Below, one piece after another: positions 16,700 to 22,584 of a stretch of 64,000 nucleotides of DNA; the stretch's first letter is position 1; every line of letters begins with the position of its first letter. The DNA comes from an uncultured Bacteroidales bacterium (lineage in GTDB: Bacteria; Bacteroidota; Bacteroidia; Bacteroidales; UBA932): the NCBI GenBank assembly GCA_944323345.1, contig CALUSC010000002.1, positions 62,001 through 126,000 on the forward strand. The letters run 5' to 3'. Both the position numbers and the translations under genes were made by a program. The notes under the pieces are model-generated. The model saw only the letters and a list, made by a program, of their open reading frames with translations. It had not been told where the DNA came from and did not search any database.

Positions 16700-17920
16700 A
16701 TGATGAAAGACTTGAAGATATTGATGGCTGTCCTGCTCTGCGCGGTGTCGGCATACTCTTGCACCGAAAGCACCATAGACGACATAGACTTTGCCGACAG
16801 AAGGACTCTGATACTGTATTCCGCCGGTTTCAACAACCTTTCAAATGCACTGCTCGATGACATAGAAGACATCTGCGAAAGCTATGTACCTGACGGCAAC
16901 CGCAGGAACAGGGACAACCTTTTCATATTCTCCCACCATATCGAGTCCGGATATAAAGACCGGACATCCCCGCACCTGATAAAGGTCTACCGCGTCGGAG
17001 ACAAGATATTCAGGGACACCCTCGTCACTTATCCGCCTGAAACCAGTGCCGTTTCGCCGGAAACACTCAGAAACGTCCTGAAATATGTCGACGATAACTT
17101 CAAGTCGGAAGAATACGGACTTATCTTCTCTTCACACGCTTCAGGATGGCTTCCTCCGAATTTTTCCCTCAACGGCACATGGACTGCCTCCGAATCTTCC
17201 GCATCGTCACCGCAACGAAGCATAGGCCAGGATGCCGGGACGCTGGAAGAAATGGACGCCAAGGATTTTGCAGCCGCCCTGCCGATGAAATTCAAATACA
17301 TAATATTCGATTCATGCCTGGTCGGAGGCATAGAGGTAGCGTATGAGTTCAAGGACGTTACGGACTATCTGGTCTTTTCTGCGGAAGAAATATTGTCCGA
17401 CGGGCTCGTATATACCGATATTACCCGCAGGCTGCTTCAGGAAACACCTTCCGACATCATCGGGGTAGCCGAAGACTTCTATAAGCATTACGACTCTCTT
17501 TCAGGGAATTACAGGTCAGCCACCATTTCAGTGGTGGACTGCTCGCAGCTGGACGGCCTGGCATCAGTATGCGCGGAGATTTTCAGCAGTCACAAAGGAC
17601 AGATTCCGGCCATAAATTACTGGGACGTCCAGCCGATGCGCCGTTCTTTCCAGTGGTTCTACGACTTCCGCGACATTCTGGACCAGCTCGGACTGTCTGA
17701 AAGCGAAACAGTAAAACTGGATGAGGCCCTGGAACGGTGCATCCTGTACAAGGCCAATACGGAATACTTCTTCGAAACTGAACTGGAAACGTTCTGCGGG
17801 ATAAGCATGTATCTTCCGAGTGCCGTAAAATCCTCTGCAGCCAGAGATTACCTGAATGAATACTACAGAGGGTTCAAATGGGACAAGGCTACAGGATATC
17901 TCGACGCATATTTTCTTTAG
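16700..17920 (+). CDS. Clostripain-like (C11) cysteine peptidase lipoprotein
   Basis: 406 residues. Lipobox Cys21 (SAYSC). His146 in LIFSSHASGWLPP and Cys206 in IIFDSCLVGGIEVAYE are the catalytic dyad pattern of clan CD, family C11. The insert between them is short and no long propeptide is seen. C11 enzymes cleave after arginine or lysine and are common as Bacteroidales surface lipoproteins; the substrate here is unknown. Flanked by the dipeptidyl peptidase (divergent) and rplY, so a monocistronic unit. Confidence 0.85.
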   Translation: MMKDLKILMAVLLCAVSAYSCTESTIDDIDFADRRTLILYSAGFNNLSNALLDDIEDICESYVPDGNRRNRDNLFIFSHHIESGYKDRTSPHLIKVYRVGDKIFRDTLVTYPPETSAVSPETLRNVLKYVDDNFKSEEYGLIFSSHASGWLPPNFSLNGTWTASESSASSPQRSIGQDAGTLEEMDAKDFAAALPMKFKYIIFDSCLVGGIEVAYEFKDVTDYLVFSAEEILSDGLVYTDITRRLLQETPSDIIGVAEDFYKHYDSLSGNYRSATISVVDCSQLDGLASVCAEIFSSHKGQIPAINYWDVQPMRRSFQWFYDFRDILDQLGLSESETVKLDEALERCILYKANTEYFFETELETFCGISMYLPSAVKSSAARDYLNEYYRGFKWDKATGYLDAYFL

Positions 17921-18667: not shown

Positions 18668-19315
18668 ATGAATAACTATCTGGTAGTCGGATTAGGCAAT
18701 ATCGGAACGGAATATTCAAATACCAGACATAATATGGGATTTATGGTATTGGATGCCTGGGCTCAGGCATCCAATATTGTTTTCCGGACCGGGAGATACG
18801 GAAGTATTGCCGAATTGTCTTTCAAGGGCCGCAGATTCACTCTGCTGAAGCCATCCACATACATGAACCTCAGCGGGAAAGCCGTACGCTACTGGATGAG
18901 CGAACTGAAGCTGCCGCTGGAAAATCTCATTGTCATCTCCGATGACCTCAACATACCGTTCGGGACCATACGCATGCGCAAGAACGGAAGCGCAGGCGGG
19001 CACAACGGCCTCACGAACATAACAGAACTTCTCGGAAGCCAGGACTATGCCCGTATCCGCGTAGGCATAGGAAACAATTTCAGCCGCGGAGGACAGGTGG
19101 ATTTCGTTCTGGGGGAACTTGACGACGAAGAAAAAAAGGAAATGCCTTCCATCTGCGACAGAGTCATCGCAGGGATAAAGGCATTCGCCACTGTCGGACC
19201 TGAGAGAGCGATGAACACTGTCAATACCAGGCCCAAACCGGCTTCAGCGGTAGATGCGCCGAAGGACGGCAAGGCACCAGCGTCTGACAAACCGCAGCCG
19301 CATCCAGGCGAATGA
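18668..19315 (+). CDS. pth: Peptidyl-tRNA hydrolase with low-complexity tail
   Basis: 215 residues. Asn11, His21 (NTRHNMGF), Asn67 (STYMNLSGK) and Asp93 (ISDDLNIPFG) line up with the E. coli active site. It recycles peptidyl-tRNA dropped from ribosomes. The fold normally ends near residue 185-190; here a Pro/Ala/Lys-rich tail (ASAVDAPKDGKAPASDK) is added. The last 72 bases are antisense to the end of the S24/S26 peptidase gene, so the tail may be a product of that overlap. Confidence 0.94.
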   Translation: MNNYLVVGLGNIGTEYSNTRHNMGFMVLDAWAQASNIVFRTGRYGSIAELSFKGRRFTLLKPSTYMNLSGKAVRYWMSELKLPLENLIVISDDLNIPFGTIRMRKNGSAGGHNGLTNITELLGSQDYARIRVGIGNNFSRGGQVDFVLGELDDEEKKEMPSICDRVIAGIKAFATVGPERAMNTVNTRPKPASAVDAPKDGKAPASDKPQPHPGE

Positions 19316-19723
19316 CAAAAAACGCCAGGAAAGGGAACTGCATTCCCATTCTTTTCCCGAAGGGGTAATCCTTCTGACCATCACACCGGATATGGATTCC
19401 GGAGAGGCATATTCCTCTCCCCTGACATTTCCGTCACCGACCGTACGGTACAGCACATTGCCGGAGGCATCTTTCTTTCTGGCGTAAATCCTGTGCAGGA
19501 CATATTTGCCATGAAAACGGAACAGGATGACATCCCCTTCCGAAAGTTCGGAACCGTCGTATTTCGCCAGACAGACACGGTCCTTGCCGTTGCGCATGAA
19601 AGGATACATACTGTACCCCTTGACGGTCAGCGTAACATTGTTTCCGGCAGCAAGGCTGTCGGATACCTGTCTGAAAAAGACATCGTTCGGAATCAGGATT
19701 GTATTGCCGGTATTATCTGACAT
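19244..19723 (-). CDS. S24/S26 (signal peptidase-like) serine peptidase
   Basis: 159 residues from ATG 19723 (a GTG one codon earlier is possible). Ser38 in VKGYSMYPFMRNGKD matches the signal peptidase catalytic serine, His77 in YVLHRIYARK takes the place of the general-base lysine as in ER-type signal peptidases, and a GDGN box follows. No N-terminal membrane anchor is seen; a basic, tryptophan-rich helix lies at the C-terminus. Start overlaps the stop of the HPr-kinase-like gene by 11 bases, so translation is coupled. Last gene of the PqqD/ABC operon, where it could cleave a leader peptide (inference). Confidence 0.78.
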   Translation of the reverse strand: MSDNTGNTILIPNDVFFRQVSDSLAAGNNVTLTVKGYSMYPFMRNGKDRVCLAKYDGSELSEGDVILFRFHGKYVLHRIYARKKDASGNVLYRTVGDGNVRGEEYASPESISGVMVRRITPSGKEWECSSLSWRFLSFAWMRLRFVRRWCLAVLRRIYR

Positions 19724-20600
19724 CACGGAAAACAGTATTATATGTCAATTCCGCGGCAGCCGTATCAGGCAGACACTCCAGATGCCACAGGGCTGCGGAC
19801 GAAACTGCATCGGATACGAAATCGCAGACAAGATCGGATGTCTCGTCCACATAATTGAATGCAGGAGGTGCGGACGGGAGCAGGGCGCCGATAGCCTGCA
19901 AAGGTGCAAGGCGGGTTATCCTGTTGTAAGGGGCCTGGCTGAGACGTACCATACCTTTCAGCGGATAGCTTTCCTGCCTGTAGCACGGAGTCTTGCCGCT
20001 CCACGGGGATCCGTACACGAATACCCTGCCGTCATCATGTATCCTCACAAACGGACTGTCATCATTCAGCAGGAACATTTCCGGATATCTCTCCCTGAGC
20101 AGCCTGGTATGCGTGCTCTTTCCGGTACCGGACTCCCCCAGGAACATTGCAGCCACTCCGTTGCAGACATTCACCGAACTGTGAATGGCAGCACATTTCC
20201 TTTTGATACATAACATATTGAACGCCATCCACAGACCGAACCTCACCATTGACGGAGAGTATTTTCCGTCTGTGGATCTCACTTCTGACGCCCCCGGCTT
20301 CCAGAGCAGCACAAGAACCGACGTCTTGTCAGGAGAAAGCATGTCGAAATATATATCATCGCCGGCCTTTCCGTATGAGCAGTCTATGCCTTCAAAACTG
20401 ATTTCATAGCAGACCGTTCTGCCCATGTAAGACGGCGAGGCCAGTACAGCGGCCTCGTCAAGGCAGCTTCTCACATGAAAATCCGCCTCCCTGTCTGTCA
20501 TGAAACCGGTAAATGCACCTGACCTGTCGATAAAATACAGGTACGAGTCCCCTGTTACCGAAAACGTGAAATCTGCAACCGATATTCTGCGCTCTTCCAT
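19713..20600 (-). CDS. HPr kinase-like (SerK/HprK-related) protein
   Basis: 295 residues from ATG 20600; an ATG six codons upstream would overlap the ABC gene. The C-terminal half is an HprK-type kinase fold: AAIHSS near 138-142, P-loop GESGTGKST at 155-163 and the LLNDDSP segment near 178-183. The N-terminal half, about 1-110, is a beta-rich domain typical of family members found beside PqqD proteins. No HPr protein or phosphotransferase system gene is nearby, so sugar-PTS control is unlikely. Related enzymes phosphorylate RiPP precursors such as class II lasso peptides. Lies between the ABC exporter and S26 peptidase. Confidence 0.75.
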   Translation of the reverse strand: MEERRISVADFTFSVTGDSYLYFIDRSGAFTGFMTDREADFHVRSCLDEAAVLASPSYMGRTVCYEISFEGIDCSYGKAGDDIYFDMLSPDKTSVLVLLWKPGASEVRSTDGKYSPSMVRFGLWMAFNMLCIKRKCAAIHSSVNVCNGVAAMFLGESGTGKSTHTRLLRERYPEMFLLNDDSPFVRIHDDGRVFVYGSPWSGKTPCYRQESYPLKGMVRLSQAPYNRITRLAPLQAIGALLPSAPPAFNYVDETSDLVCDFVSDAVSSAALWHLECLPDTAAAELTYNTVFRDVR

Positions 20601-20604
20601 AATA

Positions 20605-22272
20605 TTATCTGTTTTCATTCATTTTCAGCAGTCTGTCCATGTCTATGATTCTGGCACAGGAAGCCAATGTTTCCTGCCTGTGGGCAATGACGATGACTGT
20701 CAGCGAAGCATCGGTTCTGGAAAGTTCAGTAATGAATCTGTTTATTTCCGTCTCCGCCTTCACGTCCACGGAAGAAGTAGCCTCATCGAAAAACAAGACT
20801 GAAGCTCCCTTGTACAATGCACGTGCGATGCCGATTCGCTGTTTCTGCCCTCCGGAAATGGAGTTTCCGGCTTCGGCAAGTCTGGTATCCATGCCTTGCG
20901 GCAGGGAGGATATCCATTCCCACAGTCCTACTTTTCTGAAAATCAGCTCTATCTTTTTCCTGTCAGTATTCTCCGGCTCAGCACCGAACGCCACATTTTC
21001 AACGAATGTCCCGTCCATCAGAAAGACATCCTGGGGGACGTATCCCAGCATGTGCTGCCACGAACGGACATTGTCCGGATCTATCCGGACACCGTCTACA
21101 TACAGACCTCCCTTTTCAGGCATATAGAAACCCATCAGCAGGTTGAAGAGGGTGGTCTTCCCTATTCCCGAGTGTCCTTTTATTCCGACATATTCCCCTT
21201 TCCCGATTTCAAGGCTGAGGTCTTCGAAAATATAACGGTCATCCTCTCCGAAACGGAAAGAGACTGATTTCAGGGATATGTCCCTGGTGAATGATACCGG
21301 ACGCGACGGCTGTTCATGCGGCTCTCCGGTTTCCGACATGATGTTTTTCAGGATTTCCGTACTGTATTCCGAAGACTGGATAGTCTGCCAGCTGCCTACC
21401 AGAACCCTCACTGACGGCAGTATTTTCATGGCAGACAAGGCGAATATGCCGAAAGTCATGGATATTCCCCAGGATGTGGACATGGAAAGGAGCATCAGGA
21501 GTACTATGGAGAGCATCACTGTGATCTCCATGAAACCGGCTGAGACAGAAGAATATGATTCAGTCTTTATCCTGACATCGCTGATCCTGGAAAGATTCCT
21601 GCGGAATATGCCCGTCTGATGCTCGACGGCGTTGTTGATATAATACTCCGGATAGCCGCGCAACAGCTCGAACACAGACCGGGACTGATCTCTTCTGGCC
21701 TGGTTTTCAATCACTCCCAGGTCCTTCATACGCTTCCTCAAAAAATACGAATACGCAAACATGAACGGGCCTATGACCAGAATCAGGGCCAGGGTCGGCA
21801 GCGGTTCGTAAATGAAAAGAGCTGTAAGGATTATGGCCAGCAGCAGGGCTGAGGAGAATGCATTCAGGAGCGACATGATGACTCCGGAAGTGAAGGTCAT
21901 GGTCACTGCATTCACCTTGTTCGCAAGATCTACGCTGTTCGACTGTTTTATGAAGAGCAGCCCCTTGCCGATAAAACGGTTCAGGACATTATCCGCAAGA
22001 GTAGTGTACAGGGAAAAGACATAACGGCTTCTGAATCTCGTAAGTACCGTTACCGCCAGATTCTTGACGAGGATGAAAGCCATCGCCGCAGCAGCCACTT
22101 TCAGCACTGAAGCCACACTGCCGCCTTTTTCAAGGACCTGGGCCAGTACAGGAATGAAAACCACGACGCCGGCAAAATCCAGCACAGCCCTGACGAACAG
22201 GGAGAAGGCCACGAGAATGCCTTTTTTCCGGTAATTTTCTGGTATTAGGAAATATATATCCCTGAATTCCAT
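20605..22272 (-). CDS. ABC exporter, fused membrane and ATPase domains
   Basis: 555 residues from ATG 22272. This start avoids a 43-base overlap with the PqqD gene and gives MEFRDIYFLIPENYRKK. Six membrane helices (about 20-310) precede a nucleotide-binding domain with Walker A GHSGIGKTT, signature SISGGQKQR and Walker B ASVLFFDEATSSVD. It is an MsbA/peptide-exporter type half-transporter that works as a dimer. There is no N-terminal C39 peptidase domain, so leader removal, if any, would need another enzyme such as the S26 peptidase of this operon. Confidence 0.88.
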   Translation of the reverse strand: MEFRDIYFLIPENYRKKGILVAFSLFVRAVLDFAGVVVFIPVLAQVLEKGGSVASVLKVAAAAMAFILVKNLAVTVLTRFRSRYVFSLYTTLADNVLNRFIGKGLLFIKQSNSVDLANKVNAVTMTFTSGVIMSLLNAFSSALLLAIILTALFIYEPLPTLALILVIGPFMFAYSYFLRKRMKDLGVIENQARRDQSRSVFELLRGYPEYYINNAVEHQTGIFRRNLSRISDVRIKTESYSSVSAGFMEITVMLSIVLLMLLSMSTSWGISMTFGIFALSAMKILPSVRVLVGSWQTIQSSEYSTEILKNIMSETGEPHEQPSRPVSFTRDISLKSVSFRFGEDDRYIFEDLSLEIGKGEYVGIKGHSGIGKTTLFNLLMGFYMPEKGGLYVDGVRIDPDNVRSWQHMLGYVPQDVFLMDGTFVENVAFGAEPENTDRKKIELIFRKVGLWEWISSLPQGMDTRLAEAGNSISGGQKQRIGIARALYKGASVLFFDEATSSVDVKAETEINRFITELSRTDASLTVIVIAHRQETLASCARIIDMDRLLKMNENR

Positions 22273-22277
22273 CCGGG

Positions 22278-22547
22278 CTATTTCTCCAGCAGATTGCACT
22301 CTTTCAGCCTGTCGCACCATGACTGTGCATCGCGGGATGCGACATCAGCGTCTATTCCATATTCAGATATCAGGGCAGCCGAAGCGTCCTCTACATCGAA
22401 TTCCTTGCCGTACATGGCATTCCAAAGATAAAGGGAAGTCTCGTTAAGTGAAATGATCCTGGTCATGTCTTCTCCGTTCTTACCCTGGATTATCACCACA
22501 TGCTGTCCCGCCATTTCGCGGACCTTATATTTGCCTGAGATTTTCAT
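22278..22547 (-). CDS. PqqD family protein (RiPP recognition element)
   Basis: 89 residues. The RIISLNETSLYLWNAM segment near 30-45 and VEDASAALISEYGID near 52-66 are the three-strand, three-helix PqqD pattern with the LNxTxxxxW signature. Free-standing PqqD domains bind leader peptides of ribosomally made peptides, or have unknown roles in Bacteroidetes. First gene of a four-gene operon, with its own -7 box 30 bases upstream. No precursor peptide gene was found in the flanking 44 bases or elsewhere in the operon. Confidence 0.8.
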   Translation of the reverse strand: MKISGKYKVREMAGQHVVIIQGKNGEDMTRIISLNETSLYLWNAMYGKEFDVEDASAALISEYGIDADVASRDAQSWCDRLKECNLLEK

Positions 22548-22576: not shown

Positions 22577-22584
22577 CAAAGATA
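22577..22584 (-). promoter_or_regulatory. -7 promoter box for the PqqD operon
   Basis: Minus-strand TATCTTTG in the 44-base gap between the MATE stop and the PqqD ATG, so the PqqD operon is probably separate from the MATE gene. No good -33 match. Confidence 0.6.

Follow-up and report, generated by a model that had tools for sequence, protein, structure and literature searches.

A minus-strand operon of four genes, in a 64,000-nucleotide stretch of DNA from an uncultured gut Bacteroidales bacterium (the window; positions 62001-126000 of contig C2 in a 2.12 Mb draft genome that is 88% complete), probably forms the processing and export core of a system resembling the linear polyphosphorylated peptides (LPPs), which would act in trans on about ten precursor peptides, each paired with a predicted lipoprotein. 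At the level of sequence, support extends to the genes, their catalytic motifs, a precursor family, its co-occurrence with the operon and the lipoprotein pairing. The LPPs are a family of ribosomally synthesized and post-translationally modified peptides (RiPPs) published in May 2026. The family is defined by a SpI peptidase, a discrete RiPP recognition element (RRE), an HprK-like kinase, a nucleoside triphosphate (NTP) transferase and an MsbA-like transporter; a core Ser was found to be multiply phosphorylated, and leader cleavage was RRE-dependent (PMC13381572).

The operon and its four predicted products

The first-pass annotation of the window had described a tightly coupled four-gene operon behind a promoter box. 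All four open reading frames (ORFs) were confirmed on the minus strand between 19244 and 22547, with neighbouring frames abutting or overlapping, in an order that is kept in relatives. The box was found as well, and we take it to match the Bacteroidales -7 consensus, TAnnTTTG. In the direction of transcription, the features are:

22577-22584 (read 22584 to 22577), minus strand: TATCTTTG box, promoter -7-like, from sequence, ~30 bp before pqqD
22278-22547, minus strand: pqqD, discrete PqqD/RRE protein, 89 aa (PF05402, E = 5.4e-13)
20605-22320, minus strand: ATP-binding cassette (ABC) exporter, MsbA-like, permease fused to ATPase, 571 aa (NCBIfam and Pfam matches)
19713-20618, minus strand: P-loop kinase of the PEPCK/HprK superfamily, 301 aa (motif GESGTGKST and fold match)
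19244-19726, minus strand: S26-type peptidase, SEC11/SipW-type, predicted soluble, 160 aa (TIGR02228 and catalytic triad)

The gene order pqqD-ABC-kinase-S26 stands beside the same flanking gene in six related loci (L034, L035 and L074-L077), and since it is retained there we do not regard it as a product of chance. A DNA pattern for the P-loop (≤2 mismatches) occurred once in the window and in none of 100 shuffles. The listed start of the ABC gene, an ATG, overlaps the pqqD stop; an in-frame Met 16 codons further on falls just past that stop and may be the true start.

The free PqqD domain called earlier is the sole PqqD match in its own genome. Across 22 aligned sequences Asn35 and Asp73 were invariant and Trp77 was conserved in at least 90%. 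The window protein searched as a single sequence against the PDB gave no real match, and a PqqD profile returned the lasso RRE TfuB1 (6jx3) as the sole match at E ≤ 1 (E = 8e-5). We assessed the peptide-binding groove, whose loss in a modelled structure the first-pass annotation had named as a refutation, by residue conservation and spacing: Asn35, Asp73 and Trp77 fit the published groove residues Asn33, Asp70 and Phe74 of LppB (PMC13381572) by spacing plus one extra residue. The protein is predicted to bind a leader containing YxxP, a motif of the type bound by RREs (PMC13381572).

For the exporter, the MsbA model was the best of 190 NCBIfam matches (6.3e-67), at 226 bits compared with a cut-off of 602, and no peptidase domain was present among its Pfam matches, as the first-pass annotation had said. 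The kinase gave only a sub-threshold PEPCK_ATP match in Pfam. Searching its profile against the PDB by sequence was uninformative, and because it returned mainly the P-loops of ABC proteins we turned to a fold search. With an AlphaFold2 model (predicted local distance difference test, pLDDT, 94), Foldseek placed PEPCK (ATP) first, with E from 1e-8 and template modelling (TM) scores of 0.39-0.50, and HprK/P next, with E ~1e-4. Since these TM-scores are partial, the earlier assignment to an HprK fold can be kept at superfamily level, which is how we use "HprK-like"; the GESGTGKST motif named with it is invariant, together with NDDSP and WSGK, in 22 aligned sequences. The predicted role of this enzyme is phosphorylation of the conserved precursor Ser.

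The S26-type protein scored 49.1 bits with TIGR02228 (sigpep_I_arch; cut-off 51.85). Its nearest PDB sequence was SEC11A (E = 4e-6), and Foldseek matched its model (pLDDT 91) to SEC11C (E = 2.5e-4, TM 0.47); the model has an N-terminal helix of 13 residues and two C-terminal helices, with no long N-terminal membrane helix. The residues given earlier as Ser38 and His77, a numbering that begins at the next Met, become the catalytic Ser39 and His78 when the GTG start is counted, and they are joined by Asp98, which had gone unnamed; all three are invariant in 21 aligned sequences. We predict that this protein is the leader peptidase.

Near the operon, at 16700-17920 of the window, lies a gene for a 406-aa protein, by eye a secreted clostripain-type (C11) protease, which is conserved alongside the operon in the closest relatives. 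Among the matches listed, the nearest relatives by kinase were uncultured Bacteroidales and Candidatus Cryptobacteroides merdigallinarum, which makes Cryptobacteroides the probable genus.

Candidate precursors and their predicted lipoprotein partners

It had been noted earlier that no precursor gene is visible in the window, and we agree: profile searches found none there. A search modelled on the Bacillota leader (Tyr/Trp/Phe-xxP with one further residue at the LPP spacing), applied to the window and 40 loci (L034-L073), gave only scattered and unconvincing ORFs and was abandoned. A looser [YFW]xxP scan of the surroundings of the module, in the window and 120 loci, yielded 235 ORFs, from which a family was picked by eye and then profile-tested. 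Its members are small ORFs with the pattern Y-x-[AS]-P-x-[VI]-E ... V-E-K-G-F-A-x-S followed by a short acidic core, and they turn up repeatedly close to the module in Bacteroides, Phocaeicola, Dysgonomonas and other taxa. Of 121 loci (the window, the 40 loci, and 80 taken from at least 582 relatives in named genomes, with at least one genome present twice), at least 23 have such a precursor in the vicinity of the module, and in 20 of the 23 it is on the module strand.

The profile built from 22 of these ORFs included none from the window's own genome and four from its genus. In the own genome it detected nine dispersed short ORFs on eight contigs (E = 4e-6 to 0.024); a tenth is borderline, with E = 0.011 under a wider profile, and gains support from its location 5 bp before a lipoprotein start. 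One further match, on contig C43 (E 0.38), was dropped as it lies inside a 1155-aa frame. The suggestion that the substrate would be encoded elsewhere is thus supported by dispersed precursor-like genes carrying YxxP and a conserved Ser, and the conserved small ORFs that the first-pass annotation proposed to look for were found both in the own genome and in other genomes of the class.

Tyr, Pro and Ser were invariant in 30 aligned peptides, and Ser was present in at least 90% of a wider set of 30. Among 40 unique peptides (39 loci), the Ser stands 18 to 20 residues past the Tyr in 39. From that Ser onward the median length is 17 residues, Asp+Glu make up 24% and Lys+Arg 1.6%, and the net charge averages -3.9. 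The residue just ahead of this Ser is usually small, which, together with the fold of the peptidase, suggests leader cleavage at or near the Ser junction. Searches with the 22 precursors returned no Pfam family and a single weak NCBIfam match (paeninodin, at 0.12, in one member).

The first-pass annotation had suggested looking for asparagine-synthetase-like and transglutaminase-like genes; the genes beside the precursors proved to be predicted lipoproteins and not cyclases. In the own genome, all ten precursors are followed within ~30 bp by the start of a same-strand predicted lipoprotein with a lipobox, one of them overlapping it by 4. On contig C23 (L198:487-2092), the lipoprotein frame is broken after 29 codons and resumes in another frame, which reflects either an assembly error or a pseudogene. 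At the 23 precursor-bearing loci, a large gene comes next in 18, all 18 with a lipobox under a lenient rule, while in the other five (L036, L102, L130, L142 and L146) a module gene, kinase or pqqD, abuts the precursor. Under a fixed lipobox rule, 32 of the 40 unique precursors had a lipoprotein neighbour. Among 504 background genes a lenient rule gave 31.5%, or 24% when the longest start was used, although the precursor test is slightly more permissive than the background because it tries several starts. Four of the eight misses have a visible cause: L175 and L178 run off the sequence, L159 has a disrupted start, and L192 has a visible lipobox outside the rule. We also inspected six precursors in genomes G287, G523, G188 and G127, and a lipoprotein came next in four (L214, L217, L220 and the first of L216). 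One stretch of G287 carries in series PqqD, NTP transferase, kinase, Wza-like, Wzc-like, precursor, lipoprotein, 398-aa secreted protein, S26 and ABC genes, the non-module genes being named by eye.

An N-terminal TKT...W..D pattern is common to the partners, and their lipobox Cys is invariant (22 aligned, selected as lipoproteins). A single Pfam family for them was ruled out: fimbrillin-like Mfa_like_1 was found in 3 of the 22, and other partners have BspA-type leucine-rich repeat, adhesive, Ig-like or SusE/F domains. NCBIfam gave nothing over cut-off for the nine partners searched. By Mantel test (35 pairs), similarity between lipoproteins correlated with that between cores (r = 0.22, p = 2e-4) and between leaders (r = 0.17, p = 0.005); both effects are small and may reflect joint duplication only.

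Distribution, co-occurrence and interpretation

The kinase was matched in 79 of 150 genomes (own included) and in 72 of 90 other genomes of the genus, and at least 582 relatives were found when named genomes were scanned. Profiles run over the 121 loci found S26 in 108, ABC in 87, PqqD in 77 and NTP_transf_5 in 28, counts that are lowered by contig ends and gene calling, and in which an ABC match may belong outside the module. Genes were called mechanically, and in some cases an antisense ORF was chosen in place of pqqD, an error largely corrected afterwards; under relaxed settings pqqD was recovered in 2 more loci. A single NTP_transf_5 gene (PF14907, E = 2.2e-39) is present in the own genome, on a contig other than that of the window. 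The neighbours of the module vary between genomes and include housekeeping genes, so it is not tied to one fixed locus. A conserved neighbour set pointing to another role, which the first-pass annotation had named as a refutation of its reading, did not emerge, although a few copies stand beside Wza/Wzc-type or glycosyltransferase genes. Phocaeicola faecalis (L123), a cultured isolate, carries the whole module with a precursor and a lipoprotein.

Several variant loci were seen. Two related kinase genes lie near gltX-, rpiB- or ftsZ-type genes at L050, L053, L066 and L073, with no adjoining S26, ABC or pqqD gene called and PqqD elsewhere in the genome. Alistipes/Rikenellaceae loci (L080, L082, L093, L099, L134 and L135) have ABC-kinase and mostly S26, with no pqqD at the locus and PqqD elsewhere in the genome. 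The S26 protein measures ~260-290 aa, compared with the usual ~150, in Bacteroidales loci L091, L092, L096, L100, L111, L117, L125, L126, L137, L144, L145 and L150, and these long genes are often followed by one for a family 2 glycosyltransferase. The ABC and kinase genes of L140 (Phocaeicola sartorii) seem shortened or split, as pseudogenes or through sequencing error.

Co-occurrence was examined across 395 genomes of the class (own included), where the kinase profile (E ≤ 1e-10) had eight matches that were strong (E < 1e-70) and eight that were weak (E 1e-13 to 1e-23), the latter being set aside as another family because of the score gap. Precursors (E ≤ 0.001) were found in 5 of the 8 strong-kinase genomes compared with 0 of 387 others (p = 7e-10), and in 3 of 6 compared with 0 of 387 once two genomes represented in the profile were removed (p = 2e-6). 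Counting all kinase matches gave 5 of 16 versus 0 of 379 (p = 6e-8), or 3 of 14 versus 0 of 379 without the profile genomes (p = 4e-5). Within the genus (E ≤ 0.01), 55 of 72 kinase-positive genomes had precursors compared with 6 of 18 kinase-negative ones (p = 9e-4), the profile containing peptides from three of the 72; outside the genus the figures were 2 of 6 and 0 of 53 (p = 0.009). All 12 module genomes reached through named loci had PqqD and precursor matches (1-17 each, E ≤ 0.05), including six Alistipes/Rikenellaceae genomes without pqqD at the locus; four of the 12 (L087, L123, L140 and L152) are in the profile, and four counted matches have an internal stop. We took the genome sets to be the same across both class searches, and across both searches of relatives, from matching counts and listed handles.

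From this evidence we infer phosphorylation, cleavage, export, possible further steps and a role for the product. The PqqD protein would bind the Y-x-[AS]-P leader of the ten or so dispersed precursors, the kinase would phosphorylate the conserved Ser with which the core begins, and the SipW/SEC11-type peptidase would remove the leader by cutting close to the GF[AC]x/Ser junction. The NTP transferase encoded elsewhere may further modify the phosphate, and the MsbA-like transporter would export the short acidic peptide, which might then act with the lipoprotein encoded just downstream in display, as a ligand, in assembly or in immunity. Such a joint role is our best lead on function. The make-cut-export unit pictured by the first-pass annotation thereby gains sequence support from the precursors and their class-level co-occurrence, while its overall interpretation is upheld in part. 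A more specific and more tentative proposal is a dispersed regulon of the Bacteroidota, in which a peptide opens each lipoprotein operon, a single shared hub phosphorylates, trims and exports it, and the lipoprotein at the cell surface depends on its own processed peptide for assembly, for ligand binding or as the partner that it recognizes. If true, this would amount to a new type of surface display and not a classical secreted natural product. The LPP-like interpretation names likely substrates outside the cluster in the own genome, with the lipoprotein pairing as a hint at function, and makes a sharp prediction, namely that loss of one operon alters about ten peptides together.

Several observations weigh against this interpretation. 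The seeds were picked by eye at loci chosen by kinase, so local linkage is partly selected, the genome-wide tests being less so; the division into strong and weak kinases was drawn after the scores were known, and genomes of one genus are not independent. Precursors were not found in 17 of the 72 kinase-positive genus genomes (E ≤ 0.01) or in three of the eight strong-kinase class genomes (G318, G347 and G402; E ≤ 0.001). Conversely, among the six kinase-negative genus genomes with precursors, all drafts, PqqD was found in G032 and G040 and not in G007, G018, G068 or G077. G032 (L218, L219) has eight precursor matches and a clear solitary pqqD, with no kinase match and no other module gene within 14 kb of pqqD; the draft may lack its maturation genes, or other genes may have taken their place. 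The lipoprotein pairing truly fails at L168, L177, L182 and L184, and in two of the six inspected cases (the L215 precursor and the second of L216). Finally, the leader lacks the HQxIxFETxxS block of LPPs, and its Pro-to-Phe gap is 12 residues compared with 9.

Some of these points would suit a reading in which the small ORFs are not substrates but translated leaders with a regulatory function for the lipoprotein genes, with the operon serving another substrate: the ORFs lie within tens of bases of a lipoprotein start, sometimes overlapping it, and they occur in those six kinase-negative genomes. We consider it unlikely, as they carry YxxP, the RRE-bound motif type (PMC13381572), retain the Ser in 39 of 40 peptides, are confined at class level to strong-kinase genomes, and at five loci abut kinase or pqqD and not a lipoprotein gene. 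A role in surface polysaccharide assembly, in which the exporter would move a glycan or a lipid carrier while the peptides served it as anchors or primers, seems slightly less likely again. Wza/Wzc- or Wzz-type genes adjoin the precursor or module in L087, L143, L152, L214 and L217 (the last two named by eye), glycosyltransferases lie near several copies, and LPP clusters of Bacilli often sit with capsule loci (PMC13381572), but other module copies, including that in the window, have unrelated or housekeeping neighbours. Least probable, and in our view very doubtful, is a lasso peptide pathway with its cyclase and B2 protease encoded elsewhere. Among solved RREs the nearest is TfuB1, a lasso protein, and phosphorylating kinases and NTP transferases are found in paeninodin-type clusters too (PMC13381572; PMC7533575); the peptidase, however, is of the SEC11/SipW type, as in LPPs, and the operon has no cyclase (neither cyclase nor B2 was searched for genome-wide).

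Comparison with known systems

The LPP-like interpretation rests on a correspondence with the published family, exemplified by lppAKBSDN of P. alginolyticus (PMC13381572). A discrete RRE, an HprK-like kinase, a SipW-like Ser-His-Asp peptidase, an MsbA-like exporter and an NTP transferase are all present, as are a YxxP leader, a Ser after the leader, an operon with no cyclase and, for some copies, capsule-type genes alongside. The RRE assignment draws on PF05402, the TfuB1-like profile match and the spacing of groove residues. The archaeal-type SpI peptidase is recognized by its triad, of the same type as Ser29-His68-Asp93 of LppS (PMC13381572), by SEC11 as nearest structure and by a TIGR02228 score slightly below cut-off. 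The kinase corresponds at superfamily level, LppK itself lying outside the comparison, and the exporter does so while far below the equivalog cut-off. The NTP transferase is supplied in trans and stands with the module at 28 of 121 loci by profile.

There are also differences. The LPP leader YxxPxVLxHQxIxFETxxS (Px9Fx[T/A]) is not reproduced, YxxP and a downstream Ser being retained while the middle block and spacing differ. No precursor lies in or near the cluster in the window genome, where neither the NTP transferase nor any of the precursors found belongs to the operon, although relatives have one near the module in the loci counted above. About ten precursors occur in the genome, compared with one to three in an LPP cluster, and each is followed by a predicted lipoprotein gene. 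On account of the leader motif and the location of the precursors in the window genome, we regard the system as a Bacteroidota variant and not as a member of the LPPs. The paper calls LPPs and paeninodins restricted to Bacillota, with a network of peptidase homologues that is "predominantly" Bacillota, and the word stem "Bacteroid" is absent from it (PMC13381572). A study of RiPP mining in Bacteroidales mentions PqqD once, among the references (PMC10352776); graspetides are unrelated (PMC8939145). Among the matches listed by literature searches, which did not cover subscription papers or preprints, we found no description of a Bacteroidota version.

Paeninodin-type lasso systems share the discrete B1-type RRE, the HprK-like kinase and the NTP transferase, and differ in peptidase type and in the cyclase and B2 protease, which the four-gene operon lacks. 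The prochlorosins are a RiPP system in which a single enzyme serves many precursors, and they resemble the present case in pairing one maturation set with many dispersed precursors, through unrelated chemistry; we know of no lipoprotein pairing in systems of that type. The enzyme set itself, which the first-pass annotation had thought undescribed, was already published from Bacillota in 2026 (PMC13381572). If our interpretation is right, a RiPP family placed in Bacillota by its authors would extend to common gut Bacteroidota, and what is new relative to it is the other phylum, the dispersed substrates, the changed leader and the lipoprotein partner.

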